From positions 1 through 61,839 of the forward strand of contig JAUNGZ010000010.1 in NCBI GenBank assembly GCA_030524205.1: a stretch of 61,839 nucleotides of DNA. The letters run 5' to 3'. The position numbers and the translations under genes are program-made. Shown piece after piece: positions 4,314 to 42,051 of the stretch. This DNA is from Eubacteriales bacterium. Its GTDB lineage: Bacteria; Bacillota; Clostridia; Oscillospirales; Butyricicoccaceae. The notes below the pieces were generated by a model that searched no databases, was not told the DNA's origin, and worked only from the letters and a program-made list of their open reading frames with translations. The number at the start of each line of letters is the position of its first letter. Position 1 is the stretch's first letter.

Positions 4314-6074
4314 TCATTCCTCCATAAACCGGCTGATGCGGATGGTGATCGACGTGCCGATCCCCTGCTCGCTCTGGATGCGGAAGCTGAACCTGCCGCG
4401 GGTCAGCGACCGGATGCGGTCGTACACGTTGACCATGCCGAAGCTCTCCGCGCGCTTGCCCTCGCGCCGTTCGAGCGTGTTTTGCAGCTCCTCCAATTTT
4501 TCCGGGGACATCCCCACGCCGTTGTCGAGTATTTCAAACAGCACGCCGTCCTCCGCCGCCAGCACGTTGATAAACAGCATGCACTTGTGCGCGCAGGTTT
4601 TGATGCCGTGATAAAGCGCGTTTTCAACCAGCGGCTGCAAAATCAGCTTGGGCACCGCGCAGGATTCAACGGTAGGGTCGACGTACAGCATGTAGTCGAA
4701 CTGCTGGTCGTAGCGCATTTTCTGAATGGTCAGATAGCTGCGCACATGACGCACCTCCTCCGCGACCGTGATGATATCGCGGCCGCGGCTGAGGCCGGTG
4801 CGGAAAAAGGTGGTCAGCGCCTGCACCATCTCGACCACGCTCTGGTTCTTGCCGTCGCGCGACAGCCATGCGATCGAATCGAGCGTGTTATAGAGGAAAT
4901 GCGGGTTGATCTGCGCCTGCATCGCTTTGAATTCGGCGGCGCGAAGCTGCTCCTGCTCCTCCTTGACCGCCCGCATCAGGCTGCCGATGCGCTCGGACAT
5001 GCTCTGGATGTTTTTGGCCAGCTCGCCGATCTCGTCGTCGCGCACGACCGCGATGGGCGCGCCGAAGCGCCCGTCCCGCACCGCGCGGACATAGGTGATC
5101 ATATCGCGGATGGGCCGCAGCTCGTAGTCCCGCAGCCGCTTAGACACTGCGATGTTGCACAGAAACGCCAGCCCCGCGATCAGCAGGATGCTGCTTAGAA
5201 TCAGCTTGCCGTTCTGCCGCAGAAAGCTTTTGGGCACCACGCCCGCGATCACCCAGCTGCTGCTCGGCAGGCGCTGGAACAGCAGCATGCTCTGCTTATT
5301 GTCCACAACGCAAAGCTGCGCGCCGATCGCCGTGCGGGCCGAAACCGCGAGCGCGGTGCGAACGACCTCGCTGCCGCCGTCGATCACCGCGCTCATCAGC
5401 TCGTTCTGCGCGTTGAGCAGGAATACCGTGCCCTCGCGGCCGATGTTGACGTTCAGCATCTCCTGCAAGGTATCCTGCCGCACCTCAACCAGCACGACGC
5501 CGTTCGGCCTGCCGGTCGAAGCGTCGGTCAGCGCCGCCGCGACGGCCAGCACGCCGCCGTCCCGGTTGTCCAGCACCAGCGAGCCGCCGTCCGACACAAA
5601 CCATTCGTCGTACGTGCGGGTTTTGATGCGCTCATACTCGCCGTCGGTCAAAAGCGGATCGTCGCGCAGCGGAAAATAGCGCGACTTTGCCTCCACCCCC
5701 CGGTCGGTGCGCACATAGATCGACTCGACGTCCGTGCGGAACTCGTTGATGGCCCGCAGGCGGTCCTCGGTCGTTCTGCGGGCCTGATCGAGCGGTGCGG
5801 AGGCATTCTGCTGCGTCACCTGCTCGATCAGCATATCGTTGTCCACCAGACGCGCGATGTAAACCATGTCGGTAAGCAGGCTGTCCATATCGCCGGAAAC
5901 CTTCTCGATGATCTGCGTGCTCGACTGAAGCGCCATATCGCTGATATGGCTGACCGAGATCGTATACACCAAAAAGCCGACCAGCATAAGCGGCACGGCC
6001 ATCAGCAGCGTAAAATACAGAAACAGCCGGTTGCCCAGCGAATGCAGAAACACGCCCTTTATTTTGTTCTTCAT
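4314..6074 (-). CDS. YesM-type sensor histidine kinase, copy 1
   Basis: 586 residues: TM helix about 17-40, extracytoplasmic dCACHE-like sensor 41-288, TM helix about 289-310, HAMP about 311-365. The His_kinase domain has phospho-acceptor H392 in the QINPHFLYN motif, then an ATPase domain with the N-box (LVENALYHGIK) and G-box. It phosphorylates the response regulator encoded immediately downstream. It has its own promoter, so the kinase-regulator-binding protein trio is one operon. The sensor half shares its layout with the second kinase (13783-15576), including the same H392 position, which points to duplication. The ligand is unknown, probably a sugar or sugar acid given the neighbours. 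Confidence 0.92.
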   Translation of the reverse strand: MKNKIKGVFLHSLGNRLFLYFTLLMAVPLMLVGFLVYTISVSHISDMALQSSTQIIEKVSGDMDSLLTDMVYIARLVDNDMLIEQVTQQNASAPLDQARRTTEDRLRAINEFRTDVESIYVRTDRGVEAKSRYFPLRDDPLLTDGEYERIKTRTYDEWFVSDGGSLVLDNRDGGVLAVAAALTDASTGRPNGVVLVEVRQDTLQEMLNVNIGREGTVFLLNAQNELMSAVIDGGSEVVRTALAVSARTAIGAQLCVVDNKQSMLLFQRLPSSSWVIAGVVPKSFLRQNGKLILSSILLIAGLAFLCNIAVSKRLRDYELRPIRDMITYVRAVRDGRFGAPIAVVRDDEIGELAKNIQSMSERIGSLMRAVKEEQEQLRAAEFKAMQAQINPHFLYNTLDSIAWLSRDGKNQSVVEMVQALTTFFRTGLSRGRDIITVAEEVRHVRSYLTIQKMRYDQQFDYMLYVDPTVESCAVPKLILQPLVENALYHGIKTCAHKCMLFINVLAAEDGVLFEILDNGVGMSPEKLEELQNTLERREGKRAESFGMVNVYDRIRSLTRGRFSFRIQSEQGIGTSITIRISRFMEE

Positions 6075-6106
6075 AGCTTCACCTGCCCGCCGTCCTGTTG
6101 GGTTTT

Positions 6107-6136
6107 ATTATCGCACGACGCATTCCTTCCCGTCAA
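6107..6136 (-). promoter_or_regulatory. promoter of the first two-component operon
   Basis: On the minus strand TTGACG (6131-6136), 18-base spacer, GATAAT (6107-6112), 33 bases before the kinase ATG. Confidence 0.6.
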
Positions 6137-6146
6137 TGTCAATAAG

Positions 6147-6184
6147 CGGAAGCCCTGCAAGCAGCAATGCCGGCAGGGCTTCCG
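6147..6184 (-). terminator. terminator hairpin after the transaldolase-like gene
   Basis: A 12-bp perfect stem (CGGAAGCCCTGC / GCAGGGCTTCCG) lies 35 bases after the minus-strand stop at 6219. It is followed on minus only by a short U-rich stretch (TTATTG), so some read-through into the kinase operon is possible. Confidence 0.6.
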
Positions 6185-6218
6185 TTTCCACAGAGAGAGA
6201 AGAGAAGAAGACAGTTTT

Positions 6219-7532
6219 TTATTTTACCGCCTTGAGGAAGGTGCGCTGATAGGTCAGCACGCCCGAGGCGCTGGCAAAGCGCGACAGATACGCCGGCGGC
6301 GCGGTGACGACGACGCGGTGGATCATATCCTCGAATTCGGGTTCCATCAGCATTTTGTCGATGTGCGGATAAATCAGCTCGCCGCCCATCGAACAGATGA
6401 TCAGCCGGCTGTCCGGCAGGTTGGAACCCCGCAGCACGCGCAGCGCATGGCGGGTGGAGTCGAGGCCGTCCGCGCCTTCCTCGTTGCAGGCGTTGCGGTA
6501 GGTCAGCGTCCACTTGGCCTTGTCGATCACCTTCGCAAGCGAGCCTGCCGCCTCGGCGGGCGAAAGCATGTCCTCCGCCGCCATCAGATCCCGCATTTGC
6601 TCGGCAAGGGCGATATCGCCCGTAGCGTCGTACTGCGCCATCAAATCGCGCAGCGCGAACGTGACGTTGAAGCGCTGCTTGATGAAGGTGTTGATGAAAT
6701 ACGGCTTGGCCTGCAAGGCGAGCGCGATCTGGTGCGGCTCGAACATCAGGGTGAAGTTGGTGCGGTAGCCCTTTTGCCACAGACGGTAAGCCAGATTGTG
6801 GCCGTAGAAGTTGGTCTCGACCGTGCCGTCCTCAAAGCCCTTTTGGAAGCTGCCGTCGACCAAGGCGGGCGCGTCCTCCTTTGCGAGCGGACCGGTGTGC
6901 GGCACCTTGACGACCAAGCGGTACGGCGTCAAAATCTCCTCGAACCGGGCGATCTCCTCAAAAATCTCGCCTTCCGGCGCGAAGGGGTTGTCGACCTCGA
7001 CGCTGATATCGACGCCCGGGCCGAGGATCTTGCAAAGCTCCTGCATGACCTCGTAGCGGTCCTTAAATTTGCCGCCGACATTGGCCTTGGGGTTGTTGAT
7101 GAAGCTGTCGTAAATAATCGCGGGGTTGCAGGTCAGGTTGGCAACGAAATCCTTGATCGGCGCCACCTCGTAGGGGTTGGCGCTGTCCGCCGAATACAGC
7201 ACGCGCGTCGGGCGCTTGACGCCGTTCTCGCCGTAGGAAATATCGCGCTTGAGGTCGACCTGCGCCGCGCCGTCCGCGCCGTAGCGGAACACCGGGCGGA
7301 AGCCCGCGGGCACCACGCCCGCCGGTACCTTGAACGTGTCGATCACCTTGGCGAACTCATCCGTCACGCCGAGCGCGGACACGCTGCCGGTCAGCAGCGC
7401 GACGTCCTCCGCCGCGACTTCAAGCTGTCCGATGCGCTTCCATGCATCCTCGCTGAGGCCCGGCTGCAGGCTCAGCTTTCCGGCCGCGTGCAGCGCGTCC
7501 AATGTCACTTTCATATCCTTTACAGAAATCAT
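6219..7532 (-). CDS. transaldolase-like class I aldolase (enlarged)
   Basis: 437 residues, against about 215-330 for ordinary transaldolases. The TIM-barrel signatures are recognisable: TCNPAII (about 134-140, equivalent to TSNPSLI), an acidic strand VDISVEV (174-180), the Schiff-base lysine in VVKVPHTG (K209) and NFTLMFEP, equivalent to NLTLLFS. An N-terminal extension of about 100 residues and a long C-terminal region have no obvious match. It has its own promoter with the 21-bp direct repeat upstream, between the Rbs-type importer and kinase 1. It probably cleaves or transfers a three-carbon unit of the sugar taken up by the neighbouring transporter; the substrate is unknown. Confidence 0.75.
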   Translation of the reverse strand: MISVKDMKVTLDALHAAGKLSLQPGLSEDAWKRIGQLEVAAEDVALLTGSVSALGVTDEFAKVIDTFKVPAGVVPAGFRPVFRYGADGAAQVDLKRDISYGENGVKRPTRVLYSADSANPYEVAPIKDFVANLTCNPAIIYDSFINNPKANVGGKFKDRYEVMQELCKILGPGVDISVEVDNPFAPEGEIFEEIARFEEILTPYRLVVKVPHTGPLAKEDAPALVDGSFQKGFEDGTVETNFYGHNLAYRLWQKGYRTNFTLMFEPHQIALALQAKPYFINTFIKQRFNVTFALRDLMAQYDATGDIALAEQMRDLMAAEDMLSPAEAAGSLAKVIDKAKWTLTYRNACNEEGADGLDSTRHALRVLRGSNLPDSRLIICSMGGELIYPHIDKMLMEPEFEDMIHRVVVTAPPAYLSRFASASGVLTYQRTFLKAVK

Positions 7533-30781: not shown

Positions 30782-32125
30782 TCATAAACAGCTTTGTTTA
30801 AATGCTTGCGGCAGCCGCAGGTACAGACGCACCGCGGCGTCGAAAACACGGTCTTGCAGCGCGCACATGCGGGGCGCGGCTTGCGCGGGCGTTCCGGTCG
30901 CGCACAAATTGCTGTGGGCGCAGCCGCCGCGACACAGATTTTTGGCCCAGCAGTCCCGGCATGGCGTGCGGCTGCTGACGCGAAGCTGCTCCAAAAATAC
31001 CTGCTGTCCGCCGCACGCCGTATCGATATTACCGATCGCGTAGGCTTTGTCGGTGACAAACCGATGGCACGGGTAGATATCGCCGTGGATGTCGACCGCG
31101 CACATGGTGCGCCCCGCGCCGCAAGCCCAGTCGCCCTCGCCCGCGCGGTGCAGCCTTTGAACCAACGCGTAAACGCTGGCGTTTCTTTTCGCCTCTGTGA
31201 AGCGGCCGGAATGTACGTCTTGTTCAAACGCCTCCATCAGCCGCAGAAATTGCGTGCCGTATTCCTCAAACTGCGCGTCGTCCAGCGTGTTTTCCGCTGG
31301 CGCGAACAGCACCCGCCGGAAATGCAGGCCGGAAAGATGGCGAAAGCTGTCTCGCATGTCGAGTGAGCACGGCGTCACGCTGGCGCGGCAGCTGATTCGT
31401 TCGTTCGCGCGGTCGGCTTGGGTCTTGCCCAGCACCAGATCGTAGGAGCCGGAATGGTCGGCAAAAAAGCGGTTGGCGTCCTGCACCTCGCGGCAGCCGT
31501 CGAAGCTCAGCATATAGGAGATGGATTCAGCGTGCAGATAGGCCAAAACCGCCTCGTCCAGCAGCGTCCCATTGGTCGTCATTTGGAAGGAAAAGCGTTT
31601 GCTGCTTGCGGCTTCGATTTCCCGCGCGTGCCGCACCACGGCCTTGATCAGCTCCAGCCGCAGCAGCGGCTCGCCGCCGAAAAAGACGACCGAAAGCGTG
31701 TCCCTGTCGGACTGCTTCACCAGATAATCAATGGCCTTTTTGGCGGTCGCCTCATCCATTTCTCCCCTGTCGTGGTACTCCCCGCCCTCGCCGTAGCAGT
31801 AGGTGCAGCGCATGTTGCAGGCCTGCACGACCAGCAGCACAAGGCTGTGAAAGGCGCTTTGCGCGGGCGCGGCGGGATGATTCACGGCGACCTCATCCAG
31901 CAGCAGGCCCGCCGCGCGCATGTCCGCCAGCAGCGCGTCGAACTGCGCCCTCGACATGCGCGCGGCGACGGCCCGGTAAGCCGCCTCGGGCGTCGCGCCC
32001 GCCTGCTCTAAAAGGTTTTCGCAGTCTTGGTCCACTTCGAACAGGCCGCTGTTCCCGGTGTGGTACACATAAGCCTTGCCCCGCTCCCGGAAAATACGGT
32101 ATGGGTGAAATCGCAGCGTTTTCAT
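30782..32125 (-). CDS. radical SAM/SPASM peptide maturase (Cys-rich peptide type)
   Basis: 447 residues. ATG 32125 has AGGAGG 7 bases upstream. The N-terminal 80 residues look like a PqqD-type leader-recognition domain. The radical SAM core has C103, C107 and C110 (CNMRCTYC) and FFGGEPLL. The SPASM region is rich in Cys (C335, C342, C353, C371, C389, C392, C398, C402, C408, C421), enough for two auxiliary [4Fe-4S] clusters. It resembles the CcpM-like maturases of clostridial Cys-rich peptides. It is expected to abstract a hydrogen from the precursor and join a Cys sulfur to carbon. It is transcribed with the peptide at 30652-30765. Confidence 0.88.
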   Translation of the reverse strand: MKTLRFHPYRIFRERGKAYVYHTGNSGLFEVDQDCENLLEQAGATPEAAYRAVAARMSRAQFDALLADMRAAGLLLDEVAVNHPAAPAQSAFHSLVLLVVQACNMRCTYCYGEGGEYHDRGEMDEATAKKAIDYLVKQSDRDTLSVVFFGGEPLLRLELIKAVVRHAREIEAASSKRFSFQMTTNGTLLDEAVLAYLHAESISYMLSFDGCREVQDANRFFADHSGSYDLVLGKTQADRANERISCRASVTPCSLDMRDSFRHLSGLHFRRVLFAPAENTLDDAQFEEYGTQFLRLMEAFEQDVHSGRFTEAKRNASVYALVQRLHRAGEGDWACGAGRTMCAVDIHGDIYPCHRFVTDKAYAIGNIDTACGGQQVFLEQLRVSSRTPCRDCWAKNLCRGGCAHSNLCATGTPAQAAPRMCALQDRVFDAAVRLYLRLPQAFKQSCL

Positions 32126-32150
32126 ATCTCCGCCTCCTCTTGGCAGATTC

Positions 32151-32179
32151 ATCATAGCAAACCGCCGACGACCGGGCAA
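32151..32179 (-). promoter_or_regulatory. promoter of the maturase-Cys-peptide operon
   Basis: Minus strand TTGCCC (32174-32179), 17-base spacer, TATGAT (32151-32156). A plus-strand TATGAT (32291-32296) with a poor -35 may serve the divergent gene. Confidence 0.6.
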
Positions 32180-32330
32180 TCTCAAAGCGCGAAAGGCCCG
32201 TCCGGACGTACCAATGACGATTTCCGCCGCATTTCGTCCTTTGCCGTCGGCTTTTGGGGAAACACCGATTCTCTGCTCGTGAAAAACGGGTATGATGGAG
32301 ATAACCAAATCGGAAAAGGAAGTGTGGAAA

Positions 32331-32954
32331 ATGGATCAGGACTTCATTCGTCCCCCCAAGCTCGGACCGTTTGACAGCAAAGCGAAAGTGGTCGTCGTAA
32401 ACCAAACGGGACAGACGGTTTTGAGTACGGCGGTGGCGCATAAGTACAGCAATGTGTTCAAGGACAACCTGCAATGGGAGAATCTTGCGGAGGGGGCGGG
32501 CACGCAGCCGCAGGAAGCGCGCTACCAGACCGGGCTGACCGCGCTCGGCGCAGATTGGTGGCTGGTCAGCTGGGTGACGATGGATGGCAGGACGCATTAT
32601 ACCGCGCCGAACAACCTGACCTGGCTCTTGGACTTCCTGACGCCGCATTTTCAGGAAATCGCCACCAGCGTCAGCATGCTGTTCAACACGCTGGCAATGA
32701 TGCGGACAAAGCTGATCCAAACACCGACGGCTCTCGCAATCAGCACCGCGGCCAACATCACCAAGCTGATCGCAAGCAACGTGCTGAACGACGAAAAGGT
32801 CGAGGGCTTCAAGGAATATATGCTGCGGGCCGAGGACGCCGGACAAACGCTGACGATCACGCTGTGCGGCGACGGAACGGTGACGTTCCAATCGCCGTCC
32901 GGCAAGGAAAGCACCGGCTCGGCCGTCATGGACGCCTTAGCGGGAGAGGGGTAA
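32331..32954 (+). CDS. 'up-regulated in Daf-2' (aegerolysin-like) domain protein
   Basis: 207 residues. ATG 32331 is preferred (AAGGA about 10 bases upstream) over one at 32292. Residues about 18-95 match the PUD/UDP beta-sandwich domain known from nematode PUD proteins and scattered fungal and bacterial proteins: VVVVNQTGQTV, HKYS (37-40), then YQTGLTALGADWW (65-77) and D.DG.THYT.PNN. The rest is helical with a hydrophobic stretch near 112-150, then a short beta-like end. There is no signal peptide. The domain fold is related to lipid-binding aegerolysins; its role here is unknown. It converges with, and overlaps by 18 bases, the LytTR gene. Confidence 0.65.
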   Translation: MDQDFIRPPKLGPFDSKAKVVVVNQTGQTVLSTAVAHKYSNVFKDNLQWENLAEGAGTQPQEARYQTGLTALGADWWLVSWVTMDGRTHYTAPNNLTWLLDFLTPHFQEIATSVSMLFNTLAMMRTKLIQTPTALAISTAANITKLIASNVLNDEKVEGFKEYMLRAEDAGQTLTITLCGDGTVTFQSPSGKESTGSAVMDALAGEG

Positions 32955-33632
32955 AAGCGGCTCGCTGACGCTGTCAAGACAGGACAGCAGGCCGGCCCGC
33001 CGTTTTGGCGCGAGCGGGATTTCGGCGCCGTTTGACAGGTAAACAGCCGTGGCCGTGACCCGAGCGATTTGATAGCAGTTGACGATAAAGCTGCGGTGCA
33101 CCCGGCAGAAATACGGGGGGAGCGCCTGCTCATAGTCCCGCAGGGTTCGCCGGGACGAAAAAACCCGTCCCACGCAATGCAGCCGGCATCGATGCCCGTC
33201 GGCGCGGAGGTAAAGAAAGCTTATTGGATCGCTCTTCGGCTGTTCGTCGGATGATCTATGCAGATACCGCAGGTAGAACCCACCCCGCACCAACTGCCAC
33301 ACAAAGGTGGATTGGGCATAAGGGACGGCGTCGCGCGAAAATGACCCCGTTACGACGCAGCAGTGCGCGGATACATATAAGATGCGGTACCGTTCCTGCG
33401 GGGGCGTCGTCGGAGGCCGCCATTCCAGCATCCGCTTTAGGCTGTGCGGCCCTCCGCAGGGCGACGTTGTAGCGCCGTCCGGGCCGCATAGATCGGGATG
33501 GAGCAGCGGACGCACCGAGGCGTAATAACGCAGGCAAAGGCTGCGCACCACATAGGCGGTAAGCGGCACGAGCTGCCGCTTGTCCTGTCGGTCGTCGGCC
33601 ATGGCGTTCTTCAATCCAACAAACTGCGCCAT
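32937..33632 (-). CDS. SnoaL-like/LytTR transcriptional regulator, copy 2
   Basis: 231 residues from ATG 33632 (AGGTG 8 bases upstream, inside the preceding gene); an internal ATG at 33602 is possible. The C-terminal LytTR DNA-binding domain (about 135-225) has the FCRVHRSFIVN and V..SNGAEIPLAPKRR elements. The N-terminal half is diverged but aligns by pattern with the SnoaL/NTF2-like half of the upstream paralog. It overlaps that gene by 22 bases. It probably controls the neighbouring peptide genes. The Cys content of the N-terminal half is high. Confidence 0.75.
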   Translation of the reverse strand: MAQFVGLKNAMADDRQDKRQLVPLTAYVVRSLCLRYYASVRPLLHPDLCGPDGATTSPCGGPHSLKRMLEWRPPTTPPQERYRILYVSAHCCVVTGSFSRDAVPYAQSTFVWQLVRGGFYLRYLHRSSDEQPKSDPISFLYLRADGHRCRLHCVGRVFSSRRTLRDYEQALPPYFCRVHRSFIVNCYQIARVTATAVYLSNGAEIPLAPKRRAGLLSCLDSVSEPLLPLSR

Positions 33633-34342
33633 GCGGCCTGCACCTGTAAAAAATGCTTCGGCGGAATGGGAAGCACGGTCCCATCCGACAATTCAGCGGT
33701 AAACCGCTGGAGCTGCCGGAGCTGCCGAAGATTGACGAGGTAACACCGATGAATACGAAAAAAAAACGGCGGGGAAAGCGCCTGCTCCAGCGACCGCAGC
33801 GGACAGGCCGCTTCTACCGTTCGCGCCGTGCAGTGAAGGATGCAGTCGTTCCTGTCCGCCTCCGCATAAAGAAGCTCGTCGGGGGACAGCAGGTGGAGCT
33901 CTCCGAGCGCGCCGTTTACCCGAATGCGCGGTCCGCCGTCCGCGGCAAACAGCGCCGCTTTGGAAAGATGGACATGGAGCAGCCGGAACCGACCCTCCGC
34001 AAGCAGCCAGAGCATCGTATAACGGTACAGCTCGGTTCCCGTGTCCCGTCCGGACGACGCGCATTGGTAGCTGCCGCGGACGACACAGAGGTTTTCCGCC
34101 GCCAGCTCGAGCCGCGCGCGATGCTCGGTAACAAGCGCGGCGCGCGTGGCCCGTTGGGTGGCAAACCATGCGTGCAGCTCCCGCACGCCGCTGTAATACC
34201 GCCCAGCGCCGGGGCCGATCCAAACGGCGGCGGGGTGCAGCCGGGAAAGCACTTGCCGAAATTCCCCCCGGCAGAATTGCGTGATGATCGATTCGCTTTC
34301 CTGAAGGAGCTGTTCCGCGGGCGGATCGTTTTTTCGTAGCAT
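33611..34342 (-). CDS. SnoaL-like/LytTR transcriptional regulator, copy 1
   Basis: 243 residues from ATG 34342 (AAAGGAG 7 bases upstream). Residues about 10-130 form an NTF2/SnoaL-like cone domain (ITQFCRGEFRQVLSRLHPAAVWIGP start, then a tryptophan-rich strand). Residues about 145-240 are a LytTR DNA-binding domain (FFFRIHRCYLVNL, LSDGTVLPIPPKHF). LytTR proteins typically control bacteriocin, quorum and virulence genes. There is no receiver domain, so a small ligand in the NTF2-like pocket may replace phosphorylation (inference). It is divergent from the Nif11-type precursor across the inverted repeat at 34434-34462. Confidence 0.8.
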   Translation of the reverse strand: MLRKNDPPAEQLLQESESIITQFCRGEFRQVLSRLHPAAVWIGPGAGRYYSGVRELHAWFATQRATRAALVTEHRARLELAAENLCVVRGSYQCASSGRDTGTELYRYTMLWLLAEGRFRLLHVHLSKAALFAADGGPRIRVNGALGELHLLSPDELLYAEADRNDCILHCTARTVEAACPLRSLEQALSPPFFFRIHRCYLVNLRQLRQLQRFTAELSDGTVLPIPPKHFLQVQAAWRSLLD

Positions 34343-34433
34343 AAGTAATCTCCTTTGTCCAAACGGCTTGGCGAACGGCACAAAGGGCCGCTCCGCCATG
34401 GGGAAACGCCGCCGTCTTTTATTACAATTTTCC

Positions 34434-34578: not shown

Positions 34579-34806
34579 ATGGAAAATATCAAAAAGCTTC
34601 AGCAGGATCTTGAAAAAGACAAAGAATTGGCCGGCAAACTGTCCGCCAAGAACGTAAAGAACGTGCCTGAACTGGTGGCCGCGCTGCGCGAATTAGGCTA
34701 CGAGGTCACGGAGGACGAGTTGAAAGAGACGTTCAAGATGTCCTCCACGCAGCCGGGCACACTGGGAGGCAGCTTTATTATGATCACGCAGGTCCTCGTT
34801 GCGTAA
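34579..34806 (+). CDS. Nif11-type leader RiPP precursor with short hydrophobic core
   Basis: 75 residues; AAAGGAG lies 10 bases before the ATG. Residues 1-50 have the Nif11-like leader pattern (helical, KLQQDLEKDKELAGKL, then VPELVAALRELGYEVTEDEL). Residues 57-64 (TQPGTLGG) end in a double-Gly at 63-64, the usual cleavage site, leaving SFIMITQVLVA (65-75). The core has no Cys, Ser-rich or heterocycle-forming residues but two Ile and two Val, which are epimerase-type targets. The downstream gene is a YydG/EpeE-like radical SAM enzyme. Stop TAA at 34804-34806. Confidence 0.82.
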   Translation: MENIKKLQQDLEKDKELAGKLSAKNVKNVPELVAALRELGYEVTEDELKETFKMSSTQPGTLGGSFIMITQVLVA

Positions 34807-34825
34807 CCGCACAGGGACATAGCAA

Positions 34826-34861
34826 ACCCGCGGTTTCACCAAGCGGCAGCGGGTGTGAAAC
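34826..34861 (+). other. intercistronic RNA with two alternative stems
   Basis: ACCCGC (34826-34831) can pair with GCGGGT (34849-34854), and GTTTCAC (34833-34839) with GTGAAAC (34855-34861). The two stems interleave and cannot both form without a loop spanning the first. It lies between the precursor and the radical SAM gene and may set their expression ratio. Confidence 0.4.
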
Positions 34862-34886
34862 GGCATTGGGAAAGGATGGTAAAATT

Positions 34887-35855
34887 ATGATATTCAGCAA
34901 GGTGGGTATTGCGCTGACCGACCGGTGCAGTGCATCCTGCGCGATGTGCTGCTTTCGGTGTACTCCACACAATCGGCAGGTTTTATCGCGAGAGACGGTG
35001 TTTTCCGTCATCCGGCAGGCGGGCGAGATACCGGAAATCAAGGCGGTCGGACTGAGCGGCGGGGAGGCGATGCTGTATCCCGAGCTGGTGCTGGACAGCA
35101 TTGCGGAGATCAAACGGCTGCACATGCGGGCGACGCTGACCTCCAACGGGTTTTGGGCAAAGGATGATGCCGCCGCGGCCGATATGCTTGCCGCGCTGAG
35201 GCGCGCAGGGCTGGACGGCCTTTCGGTCAGCGTGGACGCCTATCACATGCAGTATGTCCCGCTGGACTGCATCCGGCGCCTGCTGCGGCTTTGCCCGCAG
35301 CAGGGTATACCGCTCTCCCTCGCACTGGGTGATGTGCTGAGCGGTCCCCGCGCGGGAGAGCTTGTGGCCACACTAGGGCGAGATCTGTATCAGACACAGG
35401 TGACGGTCTATCCGTTCATGCCGGTCGGCGCCGGAAGCGATTTGGACACGGAGGCGTTTTCCACCGTTCCGTTTGAGGAGACGTGGCAATGCCCGTTCCA
35501 AGGCGACCTACTCGTTCTGTATGACGGCGCAGCCTATCCGTGCTGCTCTCAGGCAGTTTATCAAAACGCGCTCTCCAACGGCAGTATCTACACGCACAGC
35601 CTGCGCGAGCTGATGGAATCCTACGAACGGGTATGCCTGTTTTCCGGCCTGCGGCGGATGGGATTTGGCAAAATGGCCACCATAGCGGCGGACGTGGGCA
35701 TTGCATTGTCTGAAGCATTTGTTTCACCGTGCCATCTGTGCAGCACGCTCTTTGGCAATCCCGCTTTCTGCGCAGCTGTGCAGCCCTATATCGAGGCGGA
35801 ATACGCCGGGCTGGTCAAGACGGCTCTGACCGGCGGCAAAGGTGAAAGCGCGTGA
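34887..35855 (+). CDS. radical SAM peptide epimerase-like enzyme (YydG/EpeE family)
   Basis: 322 residues. ATG 34887 (AAAGGA about 10 bases upstream) is preferred over a TTG at 34866. Radical SAM cluster C14, C18, C21 in the family-typical context RCSASCAMCCF.C.P; GGEAMLYPEL near 59-67; TSNGFW at 85-90. The C-terminal region has C202, the YPCC pair (C219/C220) and C282/C285. The same layout, including the YPCC and CxxC sites, is recalled from Bacillus YydG (EpeE), which inverts Val and Ile to D-residues using a Cys as hydrogen donor. It sits 80 bases after the Nif11-type precursor. It lacks the YydH-J processing and export neighbours. Confidence 0.82.
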   Translation: MIFSKVGIALTDRCSASCAMCCFRCTPHNRQVLSRETVFSVIRQAGEIPEIKAVGLSGGEAMLYPELVLDSIAEIKRLHMRATLTSNGFWAKDDAAAADMLAALRRAGLDGLSVSVDAYHMQYVPLDCIRRLLRLCPQQGIPLSLALGDVLSGPRAGELVATLGRDLYQTQVTVYPFMPVGAGSDLDTEAFSTVPFEETWQCPFQGDLLVLYDGAAYPCCSQAVYQNALSNGSIYTHSLRELMESYERVCLFSGLRRMGFGKMATIAADVGIALSEAFVSPCHLCSTLFGNPAFCAAVQPYIEAEYAGLVKTALTGGKGESA

Positions 35856-38702: not shown

Positions 38703-38731
38703 AGTATAGCAGAGGGGGAAAGCAAAGTCAA
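38703..38731 (-). promoter_or_regulatory. promoter of the TPP riboswitch-thiT unit
   Basis: Minus strand TTGACT (38726-38731), 17-base spacer, TATACT (38703-38708). The -35 overlaps the stop of the protease gene. Confidence 0.75.
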
Positions 38732-41700
38732 GCGGCCAGCCCCGCCAGACGGCGCAGAATCAGCGTCGCCTCGCGGCGGGTGATCGGGCTTTCCGGTCGG
38801 AACGCACCGTCGCCGTCGCCCTTGAGCAAACCTGCAGCCGCCATGCGCGCGATCACGCCGTGCGCCCAATAGCCGCCGGCCACATCGGAAAACGCGGGCG
38901 CGCCGTCCGCCGCGCCGCCGACGGCGAGCGCGTCGGCAATGACGCAGAATTCTGCGCGCGTGATCTTAGCGTCCGGCGCGAACGTGCCGTCCTTGTAGCC
39001 GTTCAGCAGCCTGCGATCGTGCAGCTTCGCCAGCGCGTCCGCTTGTTCCCCGCCCGGCGCCACATCGGTAAAGCGGGCGAGAACGGGCTGCTCGGTCTTG
39101 CTCTGGTCGACAAGGCTCTCGGCGAGCAGCGACGCCATCTCCCCGCGCGTCAGCGGCGTTCGGTCGTCCGACGCGGCGATATCGCCTTTCAGCTTGGGCG
39201 TTGCCTTGCCCGTTGCCGCGTCCACGCGGCAGGCGAACGGGAATTTGACGTTGGCCTCGGCGGCCCCCGTCGTCTGCGCGAACACATGGCCCTGCGCGGT
39301 CAGCTCGTCGACCAAGCCGGCGCAGGCCTTCAGATCGTTCAGCGTGACGGCCAGAATCTCCTGCCGCTCGCGCGCGTAATCGTCCTGTGTGCGGCCGGAC
39401 AGCGCGAGATTCGCGCCGCTGCCGCGGCTCCATTCCGCGTAATCGTCATACTCGCGCAGCGCGCCCAGCCGGTAGCCGTTCAGCTCCCGCTCGGTGAGCG
39501 ACAGGCCGCGCACCCAAGTCCCGGCGCGTTGAACAACCGCGATCACCTCGTCCACCGGCACGCCGCCCGAGCATGCGAAGGTCACGCCCGTCTCGTCGAA
39601 GCGGCAATTCGCGCCGTAAGCGCCGCGCTTGTCGCGCAGCTCGGGCAGCAGGTACTTCGCGCCCATCACCGCGCCCAGCACGCGCAGCGCGGCGAAATCC
39701 GCCTGCCGCCCCTCCAGAAAGCCGGTCACCATCACATGGTTTGCGTCCTGCGCGCCCGAGGAGACGACGAGCGCCGAGGGCCAGCCGCCCGGCAGGAATT
39801 CGCAGGAGGACGCACCCGCTCCCTCCGGCAGCGAGGCAAGCAAGGCCTTGGCCGCCGTCAGAAACGCCTTGTAGTCCGCCTCGCCGCCCGTAAAATCGGC
39901 GACCGTGCCGCCGCGCTTCAGCGCGCTCGCCAGCAGCCCGCGCAGACGCTCGAGCAGCGCGGCGTTCCCGCCCGGATTCGCAAGCGCGGTCTCGATAAAG
40001 TCGCGGTAGGACAGCGACGAGCCGTAAAAGCCCGTGGGCGCGCCGGTCAGGAACCGCTCGGCCTGCGTGCCCGCGCGCAGCTTGTGCGTGTATTCGGTCT
40101 GATAGGGGTCGGAAAACGTGCTTATCAGCTGGTTTTTGCGTGTGGTCAAAAAGGTGCGCAGCGCGTTTTCGTCGGAAAGCGGCGGGCTTTGCAGCAGCGC
40201 GGCGATGGCTTTCATCCCCTCGCCCGCCTTGCCGGCGTCGGCGGAGCCGCTCACCGAGAACCGCGGGTGCAGCGTGTCGGGGTCGTCCGCGCTTTCGCCG
40301 GAGATCAGGCCGAACATGCCCGAGCCGCCGTCCTTTTCCATTTTATCGGTCAGCAGCTCGGACAATAGGCACCACGCGGCAAGGTCGTCCGCCTTGGCTT
40401 CGATCGGGAAGTACAGCGAGAACGACGACCGCTCGGCCTTTTCGTCCTTGGTGCGGTGCCAGACCGCCCCGTCCGTCCTCTCCTCGGTCTGCTCGAGGGT
40501 GAAGGGATCGTCCGCGAAGTCCGACGCGGTAAGCTGCGGCAGCGTGGCGACCGCTTCGGCGGAATCGGGCGTGGAAATCCATTTATTGAACGCCTCGGTG
40601 TCCCGTTTCACCTGCTCGAGCTCGGCGGCGGACAGGTCAGGCGTGGGCACGGCGGGCTTTGCCGCCCCGTTGCCTGAGATCACGATCGTTTGGTACTTGC
40701 TGTCCCGCCATTCGGCGGCGAGCGTTTTGAAATATGCCCCGTCGTTCCGGAGCGCTTTGATCGCGTCCTGCCGCCCGATGCAGGCCAGCGGGTCGCCGCC
40801 GTAGGCAAAGCCGGTAAACGCCTCTTCCTTGCCGAACTGCTGCGCGTCCGCCTGCACGTCAAGCGCATGGCGCAGCGCGTCCGCCGACAGGCCGTTCCGC
40901 GCGGCGTTGTCCAACAGCCCTTGGAACGTCTGAACCGCTTGCTCCTTCTCAGCGAGCGGTATGCCGGACAAAATCACGCCGACATTATTCACCCCGCCGC
41001 TGGTGCCGCCGATGGTATACGCCATCGCGTCCGGGTATTTTTCGCCCATCTGCTTTTGCAGGCAGGTGACGAGCGCGCCCCAGCCCTCTGATTTCTTGAG
41101 GTCAAGCACGCTCGGCCCGTGCGCCATAAAGCCGATGTCGACCGTCTTGGTCGAAGCGGTGACGTTGTATTCCTGTACGGTTTTGCTTTGGGCGACCGGG
41201 TCGCTGTTAAATGCGATCGCGGGCGCGGCGCTTTTACCTGCTTTGGACAAATACTCGTCGAACATTTTAAGCGTTTTGCCGATATCCTGCTTACCCGACA
41301 CATAAATCAGCATATTGGACGGCTTGTAGTAGGTGTTGTACACGCGCATCAGGTCGTCGTAGGTCAAATCGAGGATATCGGGGATTGCGCCGCCCGCGTC
41401 CAGCACGGGCGTGCCGTTTGCATACAGGTTTTTGTACAGCTGGTCGCCGACAAATTGGAGCGAGTTCTCGTCCGTGTCCAGACTGCGCAGCTTAAGCTCG
41501 CTGAACACGATGCCGTTGTACTGCGCCTTGCCGTCCGCGTACTCGATGCGGATGCCCTGCTGCTTGAAGATATTCGGCTCGGTTTTCAGCAGCGGAAACA
41601 GCACGGACGACAGAAACACGTCGGACAGGTTGTAAAAATCCGCCTCGTTTTTGGTGCGCGCCACATAGCAGGTGTAGTCGTCCGAGGTGTAGGCGTTGAG

Positions 41701-42051
41701 CTCCTCGGCGGCCGAGGTGTTCACCAGCGCGTGCATCAGCTCGCGCACCGGATATTTTTCACTGCCGCACAGCAGCGCATGCTCCAGCACATGGTTCGCG
41801 CCCTTGGAATCAGCGGGCGGCGTGCGGAAGCCCGCGGTAAAGACGCGCTCGTCCGCGTCGTTGTCCAGCCAGAGCACCTCTGCGCCGCTGTCCGTGTGGC
41901 GCAGCAGATGATAGGTTCCCTCGTCCGTTTTCTGCACCTTGGCTTCGCTGAAGCCGTAAGCGCCGTAGGAACCCGCGGCCAGCGCCTCGGCGGGCAGCAG
42001 CGGCAGCACCAGCGTAAGAACGGTGATGGCGGCAAGCAATCGTTTTTTCAT
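38728..42051 (-). CDS. secreted M16C (pitrilysin/presequence-protease type) metalloprotease with C-terminal SLH domains
   Basis: 1107 residues. Signal peptide about 1-26 (ending ALAAG). Inverted zinc motif HVLEH (H87, E90, H91) with the third ligand likely E170 (GIRIEYADG). NAYTSDDYTCY and VFLSSVLFPLL are M16C landmarks. Four half-domains fill to about 930. Two SLH repeats follow (about 960-1107; FTDVAPGG..ADALAKL...LNGYKDGTFAPDAKITRAEF and FSDVAGGYWAHGVIARM...F.P.SPITRREA). M16C enzymes degrade peptides in a closed chamber. The SLH repeats should anchor it to a pyruvylated wall polymer, which fits the CsaB-type gene at 58243-60492. Confidence 0.92.
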   Translation of the reverse strand: MKKRLLAAITVLTLVLPLLPAEALAAGSYGAYGFSEAKVQKTDEGTYHLLRHTDSGAEVLWLDNDADERVFTAGFRTPPADSKGANHVLEHALLCGSEKYPVRELMHALVNTSAAEELNAYTSDDYTCYVARTKNEADFYNLSDVFLSSVLFPLLKTEPNIFKQQGIRIEYADGKAQYNGIVFSELKLRSLDTDENSLQFVGDQLYKNLYANGTPVLDAGGAIPDILDLTYDDLMRVYNTYYKPSNMLIYVSGKQDIGKTLKMFDEYLSKAGKSAAPAIAFNSDPVAQSKTVQEYNVTASTKTVDIGFMAHGPSVLDLKKSEGWGALVTCLQKQMGEKYPDAMAYTIGGTSGGVNNVGVILSGIPLAEKEQAVQTFQGLLDNAARNGLSADALRHALDVQADAQQFGKEEAFTGFAYGGDPLACIGRQDAIKALRNDGAYFKTLAAEWRDSKYQTIVISGNGAAKPAVPTPDLSAAELEQVKRDTEAFNKWISTPDSAEAVATLPQLTASDFADDPFTLEQTEERTDGAVWHRTKDEKAERSSFSLYFPIEAKADDLAAWCLLSELLTDKMEKDGGSGMFGLISGESADDPDTLHPRFSVSGSADAGKAGEGMKAIAALLQSPPLSDENALRTFLTTRKNQLISTFSDPYQTEYTHKLRAGTQAERFLTGAPTGFYGSSLSYRDFIETALANPGGNAALLERLRGLLASALKRGGTVADFTGGEADYKAFLTAAKALLASLPEGAGASSCEFLPGGWPSALVVSSGAQDANHVMVTGFLEGRQADFAALRVLGAVMGAKYLLPELRDKRGAYGANCRFDETGVTFACSGGVPVDEVIAVVQRAGTWVRGLSLTERELNGYRLGALREYDDYAEWSRGSGANLALSGRTQDDYARERQEILAVTLNDLKACAGLVDELTAQGHVFAQTTGAAEANVKFPFACRVDAATGKATPKLKGDIAASDDRTPLTRGEMASLLAESLVDQSKTEQPVLARFTDVAPGGEQADALAKLHDRRLLNGYKDGTFAPDAKITRAEFCVIADALAVGGAADGAPAFSDVAGGYWAHGVIARMAAAGLLKGDGDGAFRPESPITRREATLILRRLAGLAA

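Follow-up and report, generated by a model that had tools for sequence, protein, structure and literature searches.

Epimerases of the EpeE type are known from YydF-type precursors that come with an M50 protease of their own. In the available excerpts of the literature, epipeptides are defined by two epimerizations within 17 residues (PMC7026026), and EpeE takes the alpha-hydrogen of Val36 and Ile44, with Cys223 thought to give one back (PMC8326336). The same paper is reported to show that EpeE does not depend on a leader and that its C223A variant breaks the peptide. PoyD-type epimerases clustered with Nif11-like or nitrile-hydratase-like leaders have already been published, according to the excerpt of PMC11002830. 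We analyzed a 61,839-nucleotide stretch of DNA, hereafter the window (contig JAUNGZ010000010.1 of assembly GCA_030524205.1, from a gut bacterium of the Eubacteriales, family Butyricicoccaceae), in which a Nif11-type leader peptide is encoded next to an EpeE-like radical S-adenosylmethionine (SAM) enzyme. Judged by sequence, this pairing, which is also found in related bacteria, suggests a branch of epipeptides not described before. The pair comprises the following features, all on the + strand.

34579..34806 (+): precursor peptide, 75 aa, with a Nif11 leader (residues 2-48; PF07862 over its cut-off), Gly63-Gly64 and the core SFIMITQVLVA; it has a homologue in Intestinibacillus massiliensis.
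34774..34803 (+): main part of the core codons (FIMITQVLVA), with Ile67 and Val74 as predicted sites.
34887..35855 (+): EpeE/YydG-type radical SAM enzyme, 322 aa from the ATG at 34887 (the open reading frame [ORF] opens at TTG 34866).

The coordinates, the frames, the double-Gly site and the core agree with an earlier description made from the letters alone (the sequence-only reading). The 11-residue core has Ile at positions 67 and 69 and Val at 72 and 74. There is no Cys in the entire precursor, and the core Cys expected of the substrates of thioether maturases (sactipeptides and ranthipeptides) is thus missing. The Nif11-like leader was borne out by Pfam (PF07862, 30.6 bits, E 4.2e-07, cut-off 23.8), with the correction that the NCBI Nif11-leader model TIGR03798 gives 29.4 bits, slightly below its cut-off of 32.3. 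An AAAGGAG motif immediately precedes the ATG of the precursor, and 80 bases separate the gene from the ATG of the enzyme. No other Nif11 match was found in the assembly, which is 82% complete.

The enzyme was assigned to the YydG family, TIGR04078, as its best family (about 179.7 bits, E 9.1e-53), 131 bits ahead of the next one (48.5 bits). This match is full length, covering residues 13-313 of the 329-aa ORF and positions 3-309 of the 309-position profile. In the alignment, the ATG at 34887 matches the place where the homologous I. massiliensis enzyme starts, and it yields the numbering C14/C18/C21 for the cluster cysteines; the YPCC pair at 217-220 and the late CxxC (C282/C285) complete the EpeE-like layout that had been claimed. 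C14, C18, C21 and C220 align with EpeE, C220 falling at the place of the hydrogen donor Cys223, a place fixed by the chain of the C223A mutant. EpeE entries were the sole returns of a PDB sequence search, and EpeE came far in front in a fold comparison, in which the enzyme showed the EpeE fold at about 25% sequence identity. A grouping with thioether maturases, which the sequence-only reading had named among its refutations, was therefore not seen by family, structure search or fold. A proteusin epimerase was absent from the 25 best profile families, with no direct comparison with PoyD made. Its own assembly encodes no other close relative of YydG; the second match reaches E 1.8e-7 at 29% identity.

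Both of the nearest relatives found have the pairing as well. I. massiliensis, also of the Butyricicoccaceae, encodes an enzyme 69% identical to that of the window and, 76 bases before it, a 73-aa precursor with the core GTILITQILIV. The two precursors are 39% identical (BLASTP, E 6e-15) and share the G63-G64 site. In a Lachnoclostridium metagenome-assembled genome (MAG; locus L025), the enzyme is 44% identical and a 72-aa peptide lies directly before it, above both the Pfam Nif11 and TIGR03798 cut-offs (38.6 and 36.7 bits); it aligns with its I. massiliensis counterpart (E 7e-06). The three enzymes form one clade (support 98/98 in a first tree and 100/100 in a second), separate from 12 YydF-paired enzymes (77/66 and 82/84). 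The alignment for these trees left out L035, whose frame ends early, the truncated L043 and the split L007, and the second tree also left out L020 and L048, which have very long branches. YydF-type systems had been said to lack Nif11 leaders, and indeed no Nif11 peptide was listed beside any of the 12 YydF-paired enzymes, ten of which were assigned to this type by eye from ORF lists and two, on plasmids, through annotation.

The enzyme might act on another neighbor, with the Nif11-like peptide not its substrate. Candidates would be a beta-sandwich-like PUD1_2 protein in the window (125.5 bits, 1.6 kb upstream of the precursor) or the PLAT domain (56.5 bits) fused to the MAG enzyme. However, the Nif11 peptide is the element shared by all three clade loci and stands directly before the enzyme each time, and radical SAM peptide maturases are mostly encoded next to their own precursor. 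We regard an alternative substrate as quite improbable. The PLAT/LH2 domain is fused in frame, N-terminal to the EpeE-type enzyme (L025, 3101-4951, +); a fold of this fusion predicted from one sequence had a mean predicted local distance difference test score of 35.8 and was not used.

More distant YydG relatives, in Ruminiclostridium hungatei (TIGR04078, 125 bits) and Eubacterium sp., lie about 4 kb from a 61-aa Nif11-like peptide ending in PILPI (27.8 and 22.2 bits). At this distance, peptide and enzyme form a candidate pair and may belong together. A weak third case, L074, has a YydG-like enzyme between two small double-Gly peptides, one of which scores 19.3 bits with TIGR03798 (cut-off 32.3). 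This cluster (4374-7209) combines NHLM-type exporters and PapB-like and YydG-like enzymes, i.e., two radical SAM chemistries, with peptide cores VAPILGPIK and FLDLHYHAAK. A 64-aa ORF of L020 (IMG/VR) that looked Nif11-like by eye was rejected for want of a Pfam Nif11 match.

Because the EpeE catalytic set is kept, the adjoining gene specifies a core with many Ile and Val residues and no Cys, and the loci share no other substrate, epimerization is the likeliest reaction. The pair is thus likely to make a ribosomal D-amino-acid peptide through EpeE-type epimerization of the Nif11-led precursor, which supports the interpretation given in the sequence-only reading. Once the precursor is produced, the enzyme would remove the alpha-hydrogen from branched aliphatic core residues and Cys220 would return a hydrogen from the opposite face, converting L-Ile and L-Val to D-allo-Ile and D-Val. 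Ile67 and Val74 are the best candidates for inversion, since all three clade precursors have Ile or Val at core positions 3 and 10, in MAFFT and BLASTP alignments alike. The leader would be cleaved at Gly63-Gly64 by a protease encoded elsewhere, as neither an M50 protease (EpeP) nor a peptidase-containing ATP-binding cassette (ABC) transporter lies beside the pair, and LytTR genes probably control the locus. By this analysis the locus falls outside the epeXEPAB locus type, and its mode of action is probably that of an epipeptide system.

Several observations weigh against this interpretation. The score of the enzyme is below the TIGR04078 equivalog cut-off of 300 bits; the I. massiliensis and MAG enzymes reach 196 and 202.9, and YydF-paired controls 292.9, 286.3, 332.2, 492.8 and 431.1. 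The position of EpeE D210 varies (the MAG has His there, and several YydF-paired enzymes have Glu or Gln), and the conservation of Cys219 and Cys220 partly reflects selection because the search pattern demanded PCC. On the precursor side, the Pfam Nif11 score of the I. massiliensis leader is no higher than 13.1 bits, so that homology is what ties it in, the window and MAG precursors gave no direct alignment with each other, and the MAG precursor has Gly-Ala where the window has Gly-Gly. Neither a protease nor an exporter was found beside the window pair, and no C39 ABC exporter was found in its 82% complete assembly.

The low family score and the variable D210 position would also fit an enzyme that uses the precursor for other radical SAM chemistry, such as a crosslink, a desaturation or backbone cleavage. 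The PapB-like radical SAM gene some 2.3 kb off on the opposite strand (359.9 bits, cut-off 340) and the PapB-like enzyme adjoining the YydG-like one in L074 point the same way. Such chemistry is nevertheless unlikely: all EpeE catalytic cysteines are retained, the donor included, the precursor offers no Cys for a thioether, and no PapB-like neighbor of the pair was noticed in either I. massiliensis or the MAG. The PapB-family gene itself (30782-32308, -) encodes a radical SAM/SPASM maturase by model NF047865, with 283.6 bits for the Nif11-type model TIGR04064. It has no evident Cys-rich precursor, the sole Nif11 peptide of the assembly being the Cys-free one.

An M50 protease adjoins the enzyme in 12 of 12 YydF-type loci versus none of five Nif11-linked loci. 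In the ten YydF-paired genome loci (L026, L027, L028, L030, L031, L032, L036, L039, L040 and L041), the M50 match begins 260-300 bases past the enzyme, as derived from contig positions, and is below the Pfam cut-off in six; in the two plasmid loci a peptidase is annotated next to the enzyme. In the five Nif11-linked genomes, M50 matches that share a contig with the enzyme are 38 kb or more away from it, and the rest, including those of the window's genome, are on other contigs. An ABC ATPase motif pair such as that of EpeAB was absent within 4 kb of the window pair. A match first taken for a C39 exporter in the window's genome was rejected, as it is a C39-like protein of 301 aa without an ABC part. 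No C39 ABC exporter was found in I. massiliensis; one is encoded elsewhere in the MAG, and R. hungatei has two at a distance of about 18 kb from its enzyme.

The R. hungatei locus encodes a permuted papain-like protein (C92, YiiX/YaeF; L017, 9314-10030, -) at 23.6 bits, below the cut-off of 27. By eye, proteins of Eubacterium (L043, 1252-1968) and I. massiliensis (L006, 3609-4679, -; no Pfam match) look similar. These C92-like proteins are possible candidates for a leader protease. The window also encodes, at 38728-42051 (-), a 1107-aa PreP-like M16 peptidase with S-layer homology domains that is probably exported.

Two regulatory genes lie upstream of the pair, each with a putative link to it.

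33611..34399 (-): divergent regulator with a SnoaL/DUF4440-like part and a LytTR DNA-binding domain (PF04397, 49.9 bits).
32937..33632 (-): second LytTR regulator, without a receiver domain (PF04397, 50.9 bits).

A LytTR gene occurs within 4 kb in five of five Nif11-linked loci versus none of 21 other loci of the enzyme family, where the 21 are part of the loci fetched and some control flanks are shorter than 4 kb. The search profile was built from six LytTR domains of the five Nif11-linked loci, each of which was still recovered when it and its close relatives were excluded; these loci come from just two enzyme lineages and do not count as five independent events. LytTR-type direct repeats were not found upstream of the window, I. 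massiliensis or MAG precursors. Additional kinases are encoded at the I. massiliensis locus (GHKL, HATPase_c_5) and at the R. hungatei locus (7TMR-DISM). The GHKL kinase is AgrC-like and lies beside the pair. A less likely possibility is that EpeE-type epimerases and Nif11-type leaders came together on two or more occasions in Clostridia, and that the D-residue peptides act as signals or density-controlled bacteriocins under LytTR control, cut and exported by a non-epipeptide route, which would amount to peptide signaling with a ribosomal D-amino-acid peptide. The PUD1_2-domain protein, of a family named after nematode proteins, adjoins the LytTR genes (32292-32954, +); BLASTP showed no kinship with two I. 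massiliensis neighbors.

Relatives of the enzyme are rare. Within the family, 2 of 87 genomes have one, and within the genus none of the 24 others does. The order gave 1 of 394 genomes and the phylum 2 of 398, one of these two being an interrupted copy. The family of the MAG gave 6 of 382, including the MAG. These counts are set by the E-values of each scan, the genome samples overlap, and the relatives of EpeE-like enzymes were sampled rather than surveyed in full. A genome-contig scan with the single protein and a scan of viral contigs returned no relative, phages gave no match, and plasmids gave only matches below 60% identity. Four intact new loci came from the family of the MAG. One is L074; in L072 and L073 the small peptides are of other kinds and an M50-like gene is a neighbor, and in L075 no clear precursor was seen beside the enzyme. 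Elsewhere, L015 (5738-7598, -; Fenollaria) has two tandem YydG-like enzymes and a small peptide ending in VGNVYVDVA. In L016 (5576-9941, +), a YydG-like enzyme stands between a Val-rich peptide ending in SPVVCVVVV and an 854-aa protein that is lanthipeptide-synthetase-like by eye only.

Such rarity, the interrupted enzyme copies found elsewhere (L061, L070 and L012/L013) and the lack of a protease or exporter beside the pair would be expected of a decaying, functionless remnant. Yet both frames are intact, every invariant residue is retained, and the core pattern is kept at 39% precursor identity, which makes decay very hard to credit.

Only the pairing of a Nif11 leader with an EpeE-type enzyme looks new, because Nif11-type leaders with a PoyD-type epimerase are already in print. 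We found no paper describing it in open-licence full texts; most subscription papers lay outside this search, and an earlier description is possible. In their available parts, PMC10885120 and PMC9576775 mention both "epipeptide" and "Nif11" but treat them apart.

If the locus makes an epipeptide-like product, it would show that an epimerase can be retained through a change of leader class and processing route. The 11-residue unbranched core, with no Cys and few reactive residues, would then be a test peptide for residue selection by the enzyme. Nif11 leaders accept double-Gly proteases of broad tolerance, such as the LahT150 type (PMC9576775), and the product should therefore be easy to release in the laboratory. 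Provided that the LytTR link is functional, the idea of a D-amino-acid peptide signal in gut Clostridia would become open to testing.

Among known systems, Nif11-class precursors with SPASM maturases (TIGR04064, PapB) resemble the window in combining a Nif11 leader with a radical SAM enzyme, and a PapB-like gene is nearby. Those maturases form thioethers using core Cys residues, whereas the window core is Cys-free and the adjoining enzyme belongs to another family. Proteusins, in the excerpts of PMC11002830 and PMC8326336, share a long structured leader of the nitrile hydratase or Nif11 kind and a radical SAM epimerase, but theirs is of the PoyD/PlpD type and the window enzyme is EpeE-like. 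Compared with epeXEPAB (yydFGHIJ) of Bacillus subtilis, the window has a Nif11-type instead of a YydF-type precursor, an enzyme of about 25% identity to EpeE and below the TIGR04078 cut-off, and a core that would be 11 residues long, where the definition in the excerpt of PMC7026026 spans 17. Instead of the M50 protease (EpeP) and ABC pair of epeXEPAB, LytTR regulators stand beside the window pair. The two systems have in common the enzyme fold and catalytic cysteines, a short hydrophobic core with Ile and Val, and a precursor gene directly before that of the enzyme.
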